From Antribacter soli (lineage in GTDB: Bacteria; Actinomycetota; Actinomycetes; Actinomycetales; Cellulomonadaceae): a DNA stretch of 64,000 nt. A program made the translations under genes and the position numbers. Positions 14,912 through 39,891 of this stretch are shown piece after piece. The stretch lies in NCBI RefSeq assembly GCF_021568775.1, contig NZ_JAKGSG010000022.1:1-64000 (forward strand), in the 5' to 3' direction. Each line of letters opens with the position of its first letter. Within the stretch, counting starts at the first letter, position 1. Under the pieces are notes generated by a model, which was given only the letters and a program-made list of their open reading frames with translations, searched no databases and was not told where the DNA came from.

Positions 14912-16171
14912 GTGCAGTGCCACCACTTCGACGCCGGCCGCTGCCACTCCTGCACCCTTCTGGAGATCGCCTACCCCACCCAGGTGCTCGACAAGGAGCG
15001 GCACGTCGCCGCACTCCTCGCCCCCTTTGCCGGCACCCTGACCTGGCTGCCGCCGGTCACGGGCGCGGAGTCGGCCTTCCGCAACAAGGCGAAGATGGTC
15101 GTGAGCGGCACCGTCGACGAGCCCGTGCTGGGCATCCTGGACAGGGAGGGCCCCACGGGCGGCCACGGCATCGACCTCACCGACTGCGGCCTCTACCCGC
15201 CGGCCCTGCAGGCCGCCTTCCCTGCCCTCGCCGCGTTCGTCACGCGGGCCCGCCTCGAGCCGTACACGGTCGCGGAGCCGCCGGCCGCCATGTCCCCGGT
15301 CGCGTCGGCCGAGCCCGGACGTCGGGCAGCAAAGGCGGCCCGCGCCGCGAAGCGTGGCGCACACCGCGGGGAGCTCAAGTACCTGCTGGTCACGCTGTCG
15401 CCCGACGGCGAGCTGATGGTGCGGTTCGTGCTGCGGTCCCAGGAGCCGGTGGCCCGGATGCGCAAGCACCTGCCGTGGCTGCAGGCGGAGCTGCCGCAGC
15501 TCGCGGTCGTGACGGCGAACATCCAGCCCGCCCACGCGGCGGTGCTGGAGGGCGACCTCGAGATCCCCCTCTCGGAGCGCACCGCCCTGCCGATGCGGCT
15601 CGACGGGATCACGCTCAACCTGCGCCCGCAGAGCTTCTTCCAGACCAACACCGAGGTCGCGGCCGCGCTGTACCGGCAGGCGCGCGAATGGGTCGACGCG
15701 GTGGACCCGGCGTCACTCTGGGACCTGTACTGCGGCGTGGGCGGGTTCGCGCTGCACTGCGCCGCGCCGGGCCGGTCCGTCACGGGTGTCGAGATCAGCG
15801 CCGAAGCGATCGCCGCGGCGTGGGAGTCGCGGGACGCGCTCGTCGCGTCGAGCCCCGAGGGCGCGGCCAGGTTCGGTGGTGTGCGCTTCGCCGCGGGCGA
15901 CGCGACGGCGGTCGGGGCGCCGGCCCTTGCCGGTCACGACCCTGACATGGTCATCGTCAACCCGCCGCGGCGCGGGATCGGTGCGGACCTGAGCCGCCGG
16001 CTGGAGCACGCGACGGGGGTGCGGCACGTCCTGTACTCGAGCTGCAACGCGACGACGCTCGCGAAGGACCTCGCCGCGATGCCGTCGTTCGTGCCGCGCC
16101 AGGCTCGCGTCCTCGACATGTTCCCCCAGACCTCGCACTACGAGGTGCTGGTCCTCCTGGAACGTGCCTGA
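14912..16171 (+). CDS. rlmC: 23S rRNA (uracil-C5)-methyltransferase, RlmC/TrmA family
   Basis: The 419-residue enzyme uses SAM to methylate C5 of a uracil in 23S rRNA. The N-terminus has the Fe-S cluster cysteines typical of RlmC (CHHFDAGRCHSCT), followed by a TRAM-free central domain. The catalytic half shows the SAM motif DLYCGVGGFALHCA, IVNPPRRG, and the nucleophile segment YSSCNATTLAKDL with the catalytic Cys; a Lys/Arg-rich insert lies at about 130-150. The GTG start lies 6 nt after GATAAT, whose first bases are the end of the VOC gene's stop region, so a leaderless promoter overlaps the upstream gene. RlmC versus RlmCD specificity is not settled. Confidence 0.88.
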   Translation: MQCHHFDAGRCHSCTLLEIAYPTQVLDKERHVAALLAPFAGTLTWLPPVTGAESAFRNKAKMVVSGTVDEPVLGILDREGPTGGHGIDLTDCGLYPPALQAAFPALAAFVTRARLEPYTVAEPPAAMSPVASAEPGRRAAKAARAAKRGAHRGELKYLLVTLSPDGELMVRFVLRSQEPVARMRKHLPWLQAELPQLAVVTANIQPAHAAVLEGDLEIPLSERTALPMRLDGITLNLRPQSFFQTNTEVAAALYRQAREWVDAVDPASLWDLYCGVGGFALHCAAPGRSVTGVEISAEAIAAAWESRDALVASSPEGAARFGGVRFAAGDATAVGAPALAGHDPDMVIVNPPRRGIGADLSRRLEHATGVRHVLYSSCNATTLAKDLAAMPSFVPRQARVLDMFPQTSHYEVLVLLERA

Positions 16172-16187: not shown

Positions 16188-17894
16188 CTAGCCCTGGCCC
16201 CGCAGCGTGCCCGCCAGCTCCGCCAGGGTGGTCGTGGTGCCGGTCAGCGTGCCGGTGAGGCCGTCGACGGTGTCACCGATCAGGCCGCCCAGGGGGCCGA
16301 GAAGGCCGGTCCATTCGGACGTCCCGTCGCCCGTGCTGCCCAGCAGGCTGGTGAGCAGCTCCGTGAGGGCGCCCTGTTCTTCCTGGGAGGCCGGGACGAG
16401 GTCCACGGATGCCTCGACGTCCACGGAGGCGCCCTGCGGGCTGAGCACCGTGACCGTGGCGCTCACGTCGATGGGCACCAGCGCGGTCGTCAGCGGGATG
16501 ACGTAGAAATGGTCGTCGAGCCGGGTGATGGCCGCCAGCTCCTCGTCGACGGTGACGGCCGTGATCGTGATCTCGTCCGAGAGGGGCACGATCTTGTAGG
16601 CCGCCTCGAGCAGCGTGCCGCCCGCCGTGACGTTGACCTGCGCCTCGACGGCGCCGTCATCGAGCGAGAGGCCGACGCCGGCTCCGGCGTCCACGACGCC
16701 CGTCCCGAGGTCGGCCCTGAGGGACGCCCCGACCTCGGGCACGACGGCCTGGCCCGCCGGCAGTGCCACGCTCGGGGCGGCGAGCTCGGGCGATGAGAGA
16801 GACGTGTCAGCGGGGGCGTAGACCTGCGGCGCGGCCGACGTCTTCGCGACAGCCCGCGGCTCGGCCGACACCTCCACGGCGGGCTCCAGGAGCGGGAGGG
16901 CGCCCGCCTGGTACGCCACGCCCGTCGCGGCGGACGTCGCGACCAGGCCGCCCACCACTGCGGCGGTGAGGCTCAGCGGGTCCATGAGCAGCGAGCGGAC
17001 GAGCACGGCGATCTTCTGACCGAGGCCGGCGACGGCCGAGCCGGCCGTGCTCGCGTGCGCAGCCGCAGCCCCGACGGCCGCGCCACCGGCCCCGGCCGCG
17101 ACGAGGGCGGCCGCCTTTCCCCCGAGCACAGTGCCGAGCAGCAGGATCGGTGCGGCCGCGCGCAGCATCCAGTACGACTCGCGGACGTCCACGAACGCAC
17201 GCGTGCAGCCGGCGCAGCTGAGCATGTGGTCCTCGAAGCGGCGCCGGTGGCGAGGCATGAGGTGGTGCCGGACGTAGTCGTGCATCGAGGCCCGCGTCGT
17301 GCGGCACACCTCGTCGACCGCGGCGGCGGCATGCACCTCGGCGAACCCGGACGCGAGCTGGTTCTCCGCACGGCGCAGCCGACGTCGGGCCGCGTACGGA
17401 AGGACGCCGATCTGGCCGGCGATCTGTGCCACGGGCGTGTCGTTCACGTGCCGGTCCCAGAGGAGCTGCTGCTCCTGGGTCGGCAGCTTCTCCATCGCGG
17501 TGTGCAGCCGCTCGAGGTCGAGCGCGCGCTGGACGGGCTCGGCGACGGGCGGCACCACGCCGGAGCGGGGCCGCGCGGTGGCCGCGTCCGCGGTGGCACG
17601 GGTTGAACCCGACGTCACGACGCCCACGAGCGCCGGGACAGCGGCCTGGGCCGTGCGGGCGTGCCGCGAGGTGGCCTCGCCGGCCATGGCGAGCGCGGCC
17701 CTCACGGCGGCGTCGCTCCAGAAGGCGACCGGCTCGTCGACGGCGCCGCGGGCGACGATCGCTCGGACCAGCGCCTCGAGCCCGCGGGCAGCGGCGAGCT
17801 CGGGATCAACCCCGGGGACACGTCGCGACACCGTGAAGACGACCGCGCGCCGATGTGCAGCCCACTCGCTGAGATCGGTGCTGAGTGCGGTCAC
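16188..17894 (-). CDS. Membrane sigma-factor/anti-sigma fusion protein, paralogue 1
   Basis: This 568-residue protein joins parts normally made as separate proteins. Residues 15-75 resemble a degenerate sigma region 2; 130-185 form a region 4-like HTH (LWDRHVNDTPVAQIAGQIGV, then ARRRLRRAENQL). Residues 195-240 are a zf-HC2 anti-sigma zinc finger with H223-x3-C227-x2-C230 and an upstream C197. Two hydrophobic stretches (243-280 and 305-328) precede an Ala/Val/Asp-rich C-terminal region of about 240 residues that contains a beta-type segment shared with the paralogue upstream. The GTG start has GGAGGAGGAC just before it. It probably senses an envelope signal; target genes unknown. ECF factors with C-terminal regulatory extensions are known, but a twin arrangement is unusual. 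Confidence 0.75.
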   Translation of the reverse strand: MTALSTDLSEWAAHRRAVVFTVSRRVPGVDPELAAARGLEALVRAIVARGAVDEPVAFWSDAAVRAALAMAGEATSRHARTAQAAVPALVGVVTSGSTRATADAATARPRSGVVPPVAEPVQRALDLERLHTAMEKLPTQEQQLLWDRHVNDTPVAQIAGQIGVLPYAARRRLRRAENQLASGFAEVHAAAAVDEVCRTTRASMHDYVRHHLMPRHRRRFEDHMLSCAGCTRAFVDVRESYWMLRAAAPILLLGTVLGGKAAALVAAGAGGAAVGAAAAHASTAGSAVAGLGQKIAVLVRSLLMDPLSLTAAVVGGLVATSAATGVAYQAGALPLLEPAVEVSAEPRAVAKTSAAPQVYAPADTSLSSPELAAPSVALPAGQAVVPEVGASLRADLGTGVVDAGAGVGLSLDDGAVEAQVNVTAGGTLLEAAYKIVPLSDEITITAVTVDEELAAITRLDDHFYVIPLTTALVPIDVSATVTVLSPQGASVDVEASVDLVPASQEEQGALTELLTSLLGSTGDGTSEWTGLLGPLGGLIGDTVDGLTGTLTGTTTTLAELAGTLRGQG

Positions 17895-18006
17895 CTGTCC
17901 TCCTCCTCGCGCGTGCGACGCCGCGTGATATGTCAGTAATTGGTGCCTCGGACATCTTTTCACTCGGTTCGGGCGCACGGAAGCACCGGACGAATCACGT
18001 CTGTGA

Positions 18007-18059
18007 ATCTGGGCAGGCGCCCAGATGAGGTATGCGGACGCCCTCGGTGAGGGCGTCCG
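18007..18059. terminator. Two hairpins between the sigma-fusion genes
   Basis: ATCTGGGC-AGGC-GCCCAGAT (18007-18026, 8-bp perfect stem) and CGGACGCCCTC-GGT-GAGGGCGTCCG (18035-18059, 11-bp perfect stem) lie 15-70 nt past the stop of paralogue 2. The second is a good terminator for it. The first may be an operator or part of the leader of paralogue 1. Confidence 0.65.
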
Positions 18060-18074
18060 GAGGGCTGCTGTGGG

Positions 18075-19715
18075 TCAGTGCTTGGAGGCGTCCTTGAACG
18101 GCACGGGCGTGTCCCCACCCCCACGACCGAGCTCGTCGCCGGGGTTCCGCGCGCCGCCCACGCCACCGACAGCACCCGGTGTGCTCTTCACGATCTCAGC
18201 GGCCGAGCCTGCCGGGCCGGTCAGCGTCACGACGACGGAGGTGTCCGCAAAGGTCTCCTGCTCCGGCCGCCAGCGCGTGCTCGGGTAGGCGATCACGAAC
18301 CACGAGCCGTTCTCCTCGTCGAAGATCACCAGGTCCTCGCTGCTCGACGACTGGACGCCGGTGACCGTGGCACCACCGCTCGGCACGATCTGGAAGACGG
18401 CGAGCGCGCTCGGCGCGCTTGCCGAGAGCGGGACCGTGAACTCCTGCGGCACGACCGGCGACGGTGTCGGTGTCGGTGCGAGCGGTGCCGGCGCGAGCGG
18501 ATCCGGCAGCGAGGCGGGCTCCACCGGGCCGGCGATCACCGGTGCTTGTGGTGGCGTCGTCTCCTGCGTCGCCGGCTGGTCGACCTGCGCGGCCGCGTCC
18601 GGGAGCGCCGGGGGCTGCGCCGCCTGGGTAGGTGCCGCCTGGGTCGGCACAGGTGTGGCGGCGTGCACGGTGGGCGGGGTGTGCTCCCCGACGCCGATCT
18701 CCGGCCCGTTCAGCAAGAGCGCCACCGTGCCGCCGATGGCGGCGACGGAAGCGACCCTGCGGGCGGCGGTCACGGCGTGCCTGCCGGCCGACGTCGGCCT
18801 CCATACGGCGCGGAAGAGGGCGACGACCCCATGGGTCGCGGCACTCGTCGTCGCGGCGGCCGCCACGGCACCCGTCGCCAGGCCGGCGACGACGACGACC
18901 TGGCCGGCGTCGCGGAGCATCCACGAGACCTCGCGGACGTCGATGAACGCGCGGGTGCAGTCCGCGCAGCCGTCGAGGTGTGCCTCGAGGCGCTTCTGGC
19001 GGCGCGGCAGGAGCCGTCCCTTGAGGTAGTCGTGCATGGCGGCGCGCGTGGTGCGGCACTCGGGCGCGCTGACCTCGCGGGCGTGCGCGGCGGCGAACCC
19101 GGCGGCGAGCCGCTCCTCCGCCCGGCGCAGTCGCATCGTCACGGCGTGGGGGCGCACCCCGAGGTCGTCCGCGATCGCGCTGACCGCGCGGTCGTGCACG
19201 TGCCGGTCGAACAGCAGCCGGCGGTCGTCGTCGGCCAGGGCCGCGAGGGCCGACCGGAGCATCTTGACGTCCTCGGCGCGCTCCGCGGAGAGCTCGGCGC
19301 CGCCGACAGCGGGCGTCATCCGGGCGAGCGCCCGGTCCTCGACGGGGTGGGCACGGCCCGCCTCGCGCGTCATCGAGATGGCCTCGTTGACGGCGGCCCG
19401 GCGCCAGTAGGGGGCAGGATCGTCGATGGTCCCGCCCGCCGAGAACAGGCGGATCATCTTCTCGAGCGCGCGGCTGGCCGCCTCCTCGGCATCCACCCCC
19501 GGCACCCGAGCAGCGACCGAGCGCACGACGTTGGGTCGATGGATGACCCAGTCGCCGAGGTGCACGTCGGTCCGTGCCACCCGCGCCGCCCTCCCCGTGC
19601 TCGGTGGTGCGCCCATGTCCTCTGACTCGATGGTCCATGATTCAACCACGGTGTCTGGATTGTGCAAATCTCCCTCGTGGTTTGCAATGGCCGGCGCCCG
19701 CACGGTGGCCGTCAC
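18075..19715 (-). CDS. Membrane sigma-factor/anti-sigma fusion protein, paralogue 2
   Basis: The 546-residue protein repeats the architecture of the neighbour with better-preserved sigma motifs: region 2-like at 60-121 (AAVNEAISMTREAGR resembles region 2.3/2.4), region 4 HTH at 150-205 (RRLLFDRHVHDRAVSAIADD), zinc finger H246-x3-C250-x2-C253 plus C220 (CRTTRAAMHDY, shared with paralogue 1). Hydrophobic segments lie at about 271-298 and 320-336. A Pro/Ala/Thr linker (340-440) leads to a C-terminal beta-type domain (445-525). GTG 19715 is the start because it overlaps the upstream stop codon as GTGA, implying coupled translation. Likely a one-protein envelope-signal transducer. Confidence 0.77.
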   Translation of the reverse strand: MTATVRAPAIANHEGDLHNPDTVVESWTIESEDMGAPPSTGRAARVARTDVHLGDWVIHRPNVVRSVAARVPGVDAEEAASRALEKMIRLFSAGGTIDDPAPYWRRAAVNEAISMTREAGRAHPVEDRALARMTPAVGGAELSAERAEDVKMLRSALAALADDDRRLLFDRHVHDRAVSAIADDLGVRPHAVTMRLRRAEERLAAGFAAAHAREVSAPECRTTRAAMHDYLKGRLLPRRQKRLEAHLDGCADCTRAFIDVREVSWMLRDAGQVVVVAGLATGAVAAAATTSAATHGVVALFRAVWRPTSAGRHAVTAARRVASVAAIGGTVALLLNGPEIGVGEHTPPTVHAATPVPTQAAPTQAAQPPALPDAAAQVDQPATQETTPPQAPVIAGPVEPASLPDPLAPAPLAPTPTPSPVVPQEFTVPLSASAPSALAVFQIVPSGGATVTGVQSSSSEDLVIFDEENGSWFVIAYPSTRWRPEQETFADTSVVVTLTGPAGSAAEIVKSTPGAVGGVGGARNPGDELGRGGGDTPVPFKDASKH

Positions 19716-19933
19716 CTCCGTGAGCCGTCGAAGGCCTCGGACACGACGTCGAGACCACGGGGACCGGCCGTCGCATGAATGACGGCGAGGGCGACCTCAC
19801 AGGCTGCTGCGCACAGATCGGCCGCTCCCCAGGCGTCCGCCAGACGGTACAGGTTGACGGCGTCGCCGTCCGCGTACGCGCGCAGGTACTGGGCGCCCAG
19901 TCGGACCAGTTCCGGATGCTCGGTGTGAGTCAT
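19712..19933 (-). CDS. Small helical protein co-translated with the sigma-fusion gene
   Basis: A 73-residue, Ala- and Leu-rich protein with no family I recognise: HPELVRLGAQYLRAYADG then LADAWGAADLCAAACEVALAV, compatible with three short helices. It contains two cysteines (CAAAC). Its TGA stop overlaps the GTG start of the next gene (GTGA), so the two are translationally coupled and probably act together, for example as a modulator of the sigma fusion (inference). The ATG at 19933 lies 8 nt after the CGTC of the promoter-like element 19942-19974. An upstream in-frame ATG would extend it by 11 residues. Confidence 0.6.
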   Translation of the reverse strand: MTHTEHPELVRLGAQYLRAYADGDAVNLYRLADAWGAADLCAAACEVALAVIHATAGPRGLDVVSEAFDGSRR

Positions 19934-19941
19934 GCCCCATA

Positions 19942-19974
19942 GACGCTCGAACCCGGCGGATGTCACACCACTTC
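19942..19974 (-). promoter_or_regulatory. Putative ECF-type promoter of the sigma-fusion operon
   Basis: On the minus strand the sequence reads GAAGTGGTGTGACATCC, then 12 nt, then CGTC, 8 nt before the ATG of the small co-translated gene. An almost identical block with the same 12-nt spacing to CGTC occurs at 38874-38906 on the plus strand. ECF promoters commonly have a CGTC-type -10, so self-regulation is a reasonable inference. Confidence 0.5.
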
Positions 19975-38873: not shown

Positions 38874-38906
38874 GAAGTGCTGTGACATCCCGGCTCGTCG
38901 CTCGTC
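38874..38906 (+). promoter_or_regulatory. Second copy of the ECF-type promoter element
   Basis: GAAGTGCTGTGACATCC, then 12 nt, then CGTC. It matches the element before the sigma-fusion operon at 16 of 17 positions with the same spacing. It precedes the HAD hydrolase gene (ATG 39073); a longer in-frame start at 38908/38911 lies just after it. Confidence 0.5.
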
Positions 38907-39072
38907 GGTGATGCATCCGCAGGTCGACGAGGCCGACGACCTCGCCCTCGGTGCGTCTCGCGTGGCCGACATGGACAAATCGGTCGGCGTTTTTCCGCTA
39001 CCGTACGGATCGGTCCATCAGGGGGACACGCAGTGCTGTGCCCTGGCGCACAAGGAACGACGAGGTGGCCCC

Positions 39073-39891
39073 ATGGTGATGGATGAACGGCAGGTCTCGC
39101 CGCAGGCGGTCGGGACCCCCCTCGCGCTGGTCGCGCTCGACATCGACGGGACGTTGCTGGGGCGGGACATGGTGATCCCGGCGGTGACGATCGAGGCCGT
39201 GATGCGGGTCCGCGCGGCCGGCCACCACGTCGTGCTCGCGTCGGGTCGGTCCCTGGTGGGGATCCTGCCGGTGGCCCGGCTGCTGGGGATCGACCGTGGG
39301 TGGGTCGTGGCCTCGAACGGAGCCGTCGTGGCGCGCGTGTCACAGGAGCTCCCCGGCGGGTATGCGCTCGTCGACGTGCGGACGTTCGACGTCGAGCCGG
39401 TCGTCCGCCTGGTGCGCGCGGCGATGCCCGGGGTGCTGATCGGCGTCGAGGAGATCGGGTGGGGCTACCGGGTCACCGAGCGCTTCGCCGACGGGCTGGT
39501 GAACGGCGAGCAGCGGGTGGTGCGTGACGAGGGGCTGTGGGGGATGCCGGTCTCCCGGGCGATCCTTCGCGGCGACGGCGTTCTGGACCTCCTGGGACCC
39601 CTGCGCTCGCTCGGGGTCACGGCCACGCCGGCGGGGCCGGACTGGATCGACGTCACGCCGGTGCACCTGAGCAAGGCCACCGTTCTCGAGCGGGTGCGCG
39701 TCCTGCTCGGAGTCGAGGCGGCCCGGACGGTTGCCGTGGGCGACGGCGTCAACGACCTGGAGATGATCGCCTGGTCCGCGCGCGGGGTCGCGATGGGGCA
39801 CGCGCCGGCCGCGGTCCGCGACGCGGCCGACGAGGTGACGGGCACCATCGACGAGCACGGCGTCGTGAGCGTGCTGCACTCGCTCCTCTGA
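39073..39891 (+). CDS. HAD-IIB (Cof-type) phosphatase
   Basis: A 272-residue sugar-phosphate or phospholipid-like phosphatase of the Cof subfamily. Motif I is LVALDIDGTLLG, motif II LASGRSL, motif III a Lys in PVHLSKATVLERV, and motif IV VAVGDGVNDLEMI, all in order and intact; the type IIB cap lies between II and III. ATG 39073 has GAGGTGG upstream; ATG 39079 is an alternative, and an in-frame extension reaches GTG 38908 beside the ECF-type element. Substrate unknown. Confidence 0.9.
   Translation: MVMDERQVSPQAVGTPLALVALDIDGTLLGRDMVIPAVTIEAVMRVRAAGHHVVLASGRSLVGILPVARLLGIDRGWVVASNGAVVARVSQELPGGYALVDVRTFDVEPVVRLVRAAMPGVLIGVEEIGWGYRVTERFADGLVNGEQRVVRDEGLWGMPVSRAILRGDGVLDLLGPLRSLGVTATPAGPDWIDVTPVHLSKATVLERVRVLLGVEAARTVAVGDGVNDLEMIAWSARGVAMGHAPAAVRDAADEVTGTIDEHGVVSVLHSLL

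Follow-up and report, generated by a model that had tools for sequence, protein, structure and literature searches.

A putative membrane-tethered ECF-type sigma system and its small candidate regulon in Antribacter soli

Sigma factors of the extracytoplasmic function (ECF) type that carry a zinc finger and a membrane segment in the same chain are a described class, with groups ECF48, ECF52, and ECF53 among its members (in the parts of PMC8999054 and PMC5826349 drawn on here). The Antribacter soli locus analysed here, within a 64,000-nucleotide stretch of contig NZ_JAKGSG010000022.1 (positions 1 to 64,000 of the forward strand; hereafter the window), encodes two adjacent proteins of this kind, gene 1 and gene 2, and a 73-residue protein, P0003, all on the minus strand in the operon order P0003, gene 2, gene 1. 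An earlier note on this DNA had remarked that a sigma factor and its membrane anti-sigma partner are normally separate proteins; the single-chain layout as such is not new. What is new is the promoter of the operon, the other targets of that promoter, a homogenised sigma/zinc-finger module in related genomes, and orthologues beside rumA (presumably a methyltransferase gene) that have no sigma region 2; the note mentioned neither the promoter and its regulon nor the free-standing domains and the likeness of module copies inside one genome. The computed domains, their conservation, the promoter motif, and its targets somewhat favour a membrane-tethered ECF-type sigma system whose tiny, autoregulated regulon would feed back pieces of the system itself.

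SCO4117 of Streptomyces coelicolor, the first ECF52 member characterised, joins an ECF sigma domain, a zf-HC2 zinc finger, a transmembrane (TM) segment, a proline-rich linker, and a C-terminal ectodomain, and autoregulation has been suggested for it (PMC5826349, in the part of that source used here). The twins share its one-chain order of ECF sigma domain, zf-HC2, TM, and ectodomain; however, SCO4117 has a carbohydrate-binding domain, whereas no Pfam domain was found C-terminal of zf-HC2 in either twin at E values up to 1. The putative SCO4117 motif, CSGYN-17-SRHA, departs from an earlier prediction (PMC5826349, same part). The twins' promoter differs from that motif, and it is at the present locus that twin genes, a 73-residue partner, and a regulon with loose domains are seen. 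ECF48 and ECF53 likewise carry a zinc finger on the C-terminal side, together with one TM helix or two, and are expected to be released by proteolysis, but a twin, a small partner, or a free-domain regulon is not mentioned for them in the sections of PMC8999054 drawn on. In IutY (ECF243) of Pseudomonas putida, the sigma factor is fused to a membrane anti-sigma part and is released by Prc and RseP; IutY, however, serves iron-starvation cell-surface signalling, and those sections mention no zinc finger for it (PMC8999054). ECF41 has a fused regulatory extension, and its TGTCACA-n16-CGTC resembles TGTGACA-N15-CGTC here, although mapped ECF41 promoters are followed by a leader of 22/23 nucleotides (nt) (PMC3426412, in part). 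Likeness to ECF48, ECF52, and ECF53 was judged by published descriptions of layout. The ECF41 extension is cytosolic and SnoaL_2-like and is not known to include a zinc finger or a membrane segment. The literature searched yielded no earlier mention of the twin arrangement, the P0003 partner, the promoter, the free-domain targets, or the homogenised module.

Gene 2 (18075..19580; 501 amino acids (aa) counted from a conserved GTG) encodes a region 2-like domain (19362..19559), a region 4 helix-turn-helix (HTH; 19107..19262), a ZAS-type zf-HC2 zinc finger (18957..19058), a probable membrane segment (18699..18767), and a C-terminal ectodomain of about 90 aa (18171..18443), whilst gene 1 (16188..17894; 568 aa) is built alike except that its region 2 is degenerate: it also has region 4 and zf-HC2, together with hydrophobic segments and an ectodomain related to that of gene 2. 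The two are 41% identical over 249 aligned residues and are adjacent paralogues in tandem, as the note had it. Both chains exceed the Pfam cut-off for zf-HC2 (E values of 2.6e-5 for gene 1 and 1.9e-8 for gene 2), and the proposed H-x3-C-x2-C motif with an upstream cysteine was borne out by alignment: the ligands C170, H178, H196, C200, and C203 are invariant in 24/24 rows. Motif, upstream ligand, and score together assign the domain to the ZAS/zf-HC2 anti-sigma class, and a profile of 24 related modules matched the anti-sigma factor RsiW in the PDB (5wuq_C, E 0.0047). For region 4, gene 1 passes the Pfam Sigma70_r4_2 cut-off (1.5e-6), whereas gene 2 remains below it (3.8e-4).

That each chain also contains a sigma-type region 2 stood in part. 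Regions 2 and 4 of gene 2 are covered by two full-length NCBIfam models for ECF factors, TIGR02983 (residues 74–205, 2.7e-11) and TIGR02937 (residues 64–203, 1.5e-9), both below their curated cut-offs and numbered on a 546-aa open reading frame (ORF); the profile of 24 modules matched SigL across both regions (6dv9_F, 5.3e-4, profile positions 17–150). In an AlphaFold2 (AF2) model of gene 2 (predicted local distance difference test (pLDDT) 77, predicted template modelling score 0.57), residues 1–76 superpose on sigmaE region 2 (4lup_C, Z 7.9, root mean square deviation 3.4, 74 aligned) and residues 88–163 on SigL region 4 (3hug_C, Z 8.7, deviation 2.3, 76 aligned), values that are modest for helical domains, with the leading rows mostly sigma factors. 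Foldseek alone gave nothing for this model at E ≤ 0.001, the best row being sigmaE 1or7_A (1.8e-3). The W, A, and N of region 2.4 are kept in 19/19 gene 2-type rows. With regions 2 and 4 both in its chain, gene 2 has the domain content of an ECF sigma factor (sigma70 family, group IV), and its succession of sigma, zinc finger, TM, and ectodomain is that of ECF48, ECF52, and ECF53, the TM being assigned by hydropathy only. Region 2 of gene 1, by comparison, was recognised solely through homology to gene 2, and neither chain matched Pfam Sigma70_r2 at E up to 1. The hydrophobic segments and C-terminal domains of the note were upheld: an Arg-rich stretch before the gene 2 membrane segment would lie inside by its charge, and the ectodomains are related to the C-termini of relatives (gene 2 to L106, 4.9e-7; gene 1 to its orthologue L104, 3.8e-20; L104 to gene 2, 8.2e-5; E values for a 12-sequence set).

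Ahead of the operon stands an ECF-type promoter motif, AAGTGCTGTGACATCC-N12-CGTC, identified by alignment, pattern searches, and offset statistics; the window copy (AAGTGGTGTGACATCC-N12-CGTC, 19942..19973, minus strand) has one mismatch to the pattern. The start codon of P0003 (19712..19933), an ATG, lies 8 nt past the end of this CGTC, and a leaderless mRNA is therefore predicted. Upstream of P0003, AGTGnnGTGACAT and CGTC/CGTG (GCGT) are kept in 12/12 aligned loci amid variable flanks. A search for the exact core TGTGACAT-N14-CGTC returned 20 copies across 7 genomes versus 0 for the reversed pattern. Two copies lie in the window, where 0.22 sites are expected at up to one mismatch and 2/100 shuffles reached two or more. 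At up to three mismatches, the extended pattern gave 41 sites in 10/12 genomes against 2 reversed-pattern controls, and 39 sites in 11/30 genomes of a second set against 4 controls, both sets being hand-picked and not random. At up to two mismatches, 72 sites fell in 18/19 genomes (2–6 each) of g1, g6, and g14, the three genera having close gene 2 relatives, versus 0 in 21 genomes of 13 other genera; the Fisher value of 1.7e-10, which omits two g10 genomes (G010 and G051), overstates the evidence since the genomes are related. An ATG lies at exactly +8 for 52 of 70 distinct sites, with any other offset from 0 to 19 taken by three at most; this pool covers those listed sites within collected loci whose -10 element reads CGT, so that G015, with its CATC site, falls outside the count. 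CGTC with a spacer of about 16 nt is typical of ECF promoters, ECF41 being an instance (PMC3426412), and its presence here is in keeping with an ECF-type sigma system.

By best match, the 70 sites lead to P0003 (15), a HAD protein (13, 12 of them besides the window's), a protein of about 101/106 aa (11), a solo region 2-like gene (11), a solo zf-HC2 gene (3), or none of these (17). One HAD-tallied site, that of L181 (G002), is followed first by a solo region 2-like gene and directly after it by the HAD gene, so that 12 sites in fact lead to a solo region 2-like gene. Targets thus include loose pieces of the same proteins (12 solo region 2-like and 3 solo zf-HC2 sites), which counts for a system that feeds back on itself. 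The solo region 2-like proteins have 85–97 aa at 11/12 sites (at L219 of G132 the frame is open for 497 codons) and are under purifying selection in Promicromonospora (dN/dS 0.15–0.22, 10 pairs), and the ~101-aa protein gave 0.20–0.27 (6 pairs); these figures cover sequences of equal length, which leaves out G002 for the former and G127 for the latter. Solo zf-HC2 loci L063, L064, L065, L069, and L070 of Promicromonospora (G104, G116) showed no motif at up to three mismatches. Divergent copies a short way upstream of the operon make up 14 of the 17 unmatched sites (13 next to a P0003 gene, and one in P. soli, which is without P0003); the other three lie elsewhere (L182, L187, L190). The divergent copies (L059 7914(+), L007 5432(-), L188, L189, and others) stand about 150–185 bp from the operon site, have no ATG at +8, and are followed just downstream by GACGCG in 13/14; they possibly mark a small RNA or a divergent transcript.

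The second window site (38875..38906, plus strand) shows no mismatch to the pattern and precedes the ORF of a Cof-type HAD phosphatase (38911..39891, plus strand; Pfam Hydrolase_3, 2e-37), for which an in-frame ATG at 39073 would be the better start by fit to relatives. The window yielded no solo region 2 gene, and, unlike in L181, the motif here precedes the HAD gene without one.

The first target, P0003, was taken for a real protein in the note, rightly so: it is present in 18/150 genomes of the family, as a single copy in each (g1, g6, g10, g14), with dN/dS of 0.03–0.23 (28 pairs of 8 sequences). Its AF2 model (pLDDT 88) is all-helical with four helices and found no convincing match in the PDB (best Z 2.8); no match was found in plasmids. 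The idea that P0003 is a diverged region 2 domain was unsupported by profile comparison, which left it a very low probability. G010 and G051 carry a P0003-like gene, 53–54% identical, beside the fusion and on the opposite strand. The GTGA overlap that was said to couple P0003 to gene 2 is, by contrast, likely an ORF artefact. A GTG at window position 19580, near a DDW motif and behind a purine-rich stretch, is the sole invariant start codon in 12/12 loci, whereas between the P0003 stop and DDW the gap ranges from 156 to 247 nt with a changing frame; the overlap is therefore probably not real. In 3/4 Myceligenerans loci (L023, L024, L109), no open frame for gene 2 begins until about 165 nt past the P0003 stop; in L007 it opens 44 nt past that stop. 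The true start of gene 2 most likely lies 135 nt downstream of the mechanical ORF start (19715), giving 501 and not 546 aa. The resulting 131-nt spacer (19581..19711) holds a partly conserved GGTG..ATCAT stretch.

Region 2 of gene 1 is the more degenerate, as had been claimed: by eye, the Asn of AAxNEA in region 2.4 is present in 19/19 gene 2-type rows and in 0/5 gene 1-type rows. Gene 1 is thus probably a sensor or titrating partner and no longer a working sigma factor. The narrower proposal that it is a dedicated anti-sigma or decoy partner holding the gene 2 sigma part can be advanced only tentatively. It would fit the missing Asn in 5/5 rows, the Myceligenerans gene 1 orthologues (ORFs of 237–290 aa), which by eye keep the zinc finger but have lost most of region 4 and the membrane segment, the purifying selection on the free region 2-like proteins of Promicromonospora, and the closeness of three free region 2-like proteins to gene 1 (53.7–65.4% identity) over gene 2 (43.1–46.0%). 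Region 4 of the window's gene 1 nevertheless outscores that of gene 2 and may still bind DNA, and the interaction is only putative. The proposal is compatible with a tethered gene 2 sigma factor and does not exclude it.

In the favoured scheme, gene 2 would be a membrane-tethered ECF-type sigma factor that its own zf-HC2 domain restrains. Release of the sigma part would follow a signal at the ectodomain and probably proceed through proteolysis, by analogy with IutY and the ECF52 model, and the freed part would then drive leaderless transcripts from AAGTGCTGTGACATCC-N12-CGTC-N8-ATG; the sigma factor reading the motif is, we infer, the gene 2 module. Targets would be its own operon and a few other units, including those for free region 2-like and free zf-HC2 proteins, and the output may accordingly return presumed decoy and inhibitor pieces to the circuit.

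Several observations weigh against this scheme. Besides the missing Sigma70_r2 match, region 2.2 shows no acidic-x-x-Q-E, its usual signature, in obvious register, and core binding is only putative. Co-occurrence of the motif and gene 2 over three related genera is phylogenetically confounded. The region 2 fusion is kept in three genomes of two other genera, G010 and G051 (g10) and G024, with no site at up to three mismatches of the extended pattern, and region 2 and the motif are therefore not coupled everywhere; G010 does have the exact core TGTGACAT-N14-CGTC ahead of its P0003-like gene. G047 keeps genes 2 and 1 with no P0003 match and a single three-mismatch site, and G044 and G015, of other genera, carry one three-mismatch site each. 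Finally, an ATG at +8 is lacking at the window's HAD site and, overall, at 18/70 sites, 14 of them the divergent copies. G086 shows the pattern expected if paralogues share output: it retains two module paralogues (fusions of types B and C) along with its HAD and ~101-aa sites, and neither gene 1 nor P0003 was found in this draft, which runs to about 60 contigs. G047 argues to the contrary, in that its fusions stay and P0003 and nearly all sites are gone.

One alternative is that the fusions are membrane-bound regulators which act through the region 4 HTH and are switched by the zinc finger, while another ECF sigma factor of the same genera reads the promoter. The unmatched Sigma70_r2 model and the motif-free genomes that keep region 2 fit this idea, as does the -35 part, which is conserved across about 13 nt and so exceeds the usual ECF -35 element. 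So do the rumA-adjacent orthologues of g9, g18, and g21, which in 13/13 loci (L075, L076, L078, L099–L102, L105–L107, L111, L113, L114; best alignment per ORF) begin to align only at the linker that precedes region 4, retaining region 4 and zf-HC2 with region 2 missing. The nine searched genomes of these genera, however, have no motif site, and both the region 2-like fold of gene 2 and its constant region 2.4 residues speak for a sigma factor; a mere regulator is thus considered unlikely. Distant fusions that keep region 2 (L098 of g24, and L110 of another family) suggest that the rumA-adjacent orthologues lost region 2 rather than that the fusion gained it.

At E ≤ 1e-8 the module occurs in 121/150 genomes of the family, many in distant forms, and at E ≤ 1e-15 in 10/198 genomes of the wider order, 7 of the 10 belonging to the window's family. 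The same A. soli genome also encodes a distant sigma/zf-HC2/TM fusion (L004, G000:C14:55524-56432) whose ectodomain is very long and repeat-like, and such long-ectodomain forms are seen in many family genomes. These forms, and the prior description of the single-chain layout, would suit a simpler account in which an ECF48/52/53-like fusion was duplicated redundantly and serves no special circuit. The rarity and strict placement of the promoter and its recurrent targets, together with the conservation of P0003, make that account quite improbable.

Promicromonospora places the sigma/zinc-finger module beneath differing ectodomains, and its loci were labelled here as types A, B, and C from ectodomains and flanks. 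The exact core was absent from type B loci L006, L008, L012–L014, L016, L020, L061, and L068 (the upstream alignment was properly anchored in only 6/9) and from type C loci L015, L018, and L062; type B fusions L061, L012, L006, and L014 have a palindrome-like GTGCGTTGACGCAC upstream, perhaps an operator. Module DNA was aligned for 25/29 copies, four P. sukumoe halves broken at contig ends being left out, and means were taken from 21 copies (210 pairs), with the window row and three rows from Myceligenerans set aside. In comparisons between genomes, same-type copies average 85.4% identity (60 pairs, maximum 90.5) and copies of different types 84.6% (136 pairs, maximum 90.0). Within genomes, six of 14 copy pairs reach 94.5–99.2% and eight lie at 85.9–90.8%. 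Five of the six high pairs join different locus types; the exception, A/A2 of G104, has one ectodomain type in both copies and could have arisen by recent duplication. The flanks of type B and C loci are orthologous across species (10 B or C pairs compared), and this pattern, high identity across locus types between orthologous flanks, points to gene conversion in 5/7 multi-copy genomes compared (P. sp. AC04, umidemergens, panici, kroppenstedtii, and G116). Homogenisation fails for types B and C of G104 and is weak in P. citrea (86.4–90.8). Short N-terminal matches considered as silent donor cassettes (L072–L074, three checked) proved to be contig ends. A broader picture would have sensors with different ectodomains share one gene-converted module and so bring many inputs to one leaderless promoter, with free decoys, inhibitors, and P0003 tuning the module and some lineages shedding region 2; in this entirety, the fused and dismantled circuit is rather doubtful.

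The locus is anchored on one side by what we take to be a rumA/RlmC-like methyltransferase gene (14912..16171, plus strand) and is flanked on the other by a presumed ion-channel gene. This synteny is kept in loci of g1, g6, and g14, so that the neighbourhood conservation for which a check had been proposed is present.

With a sharp motif and a short, recurrent target list, a single reporter would suffice to test the promoter question. Placing loose region 2-like and zinc-finger proteins under one promoter would, if true, constitute a new feedback design. The rumA locus itself offers a natural series that runs from a full sigma fusion to forms without region 2.

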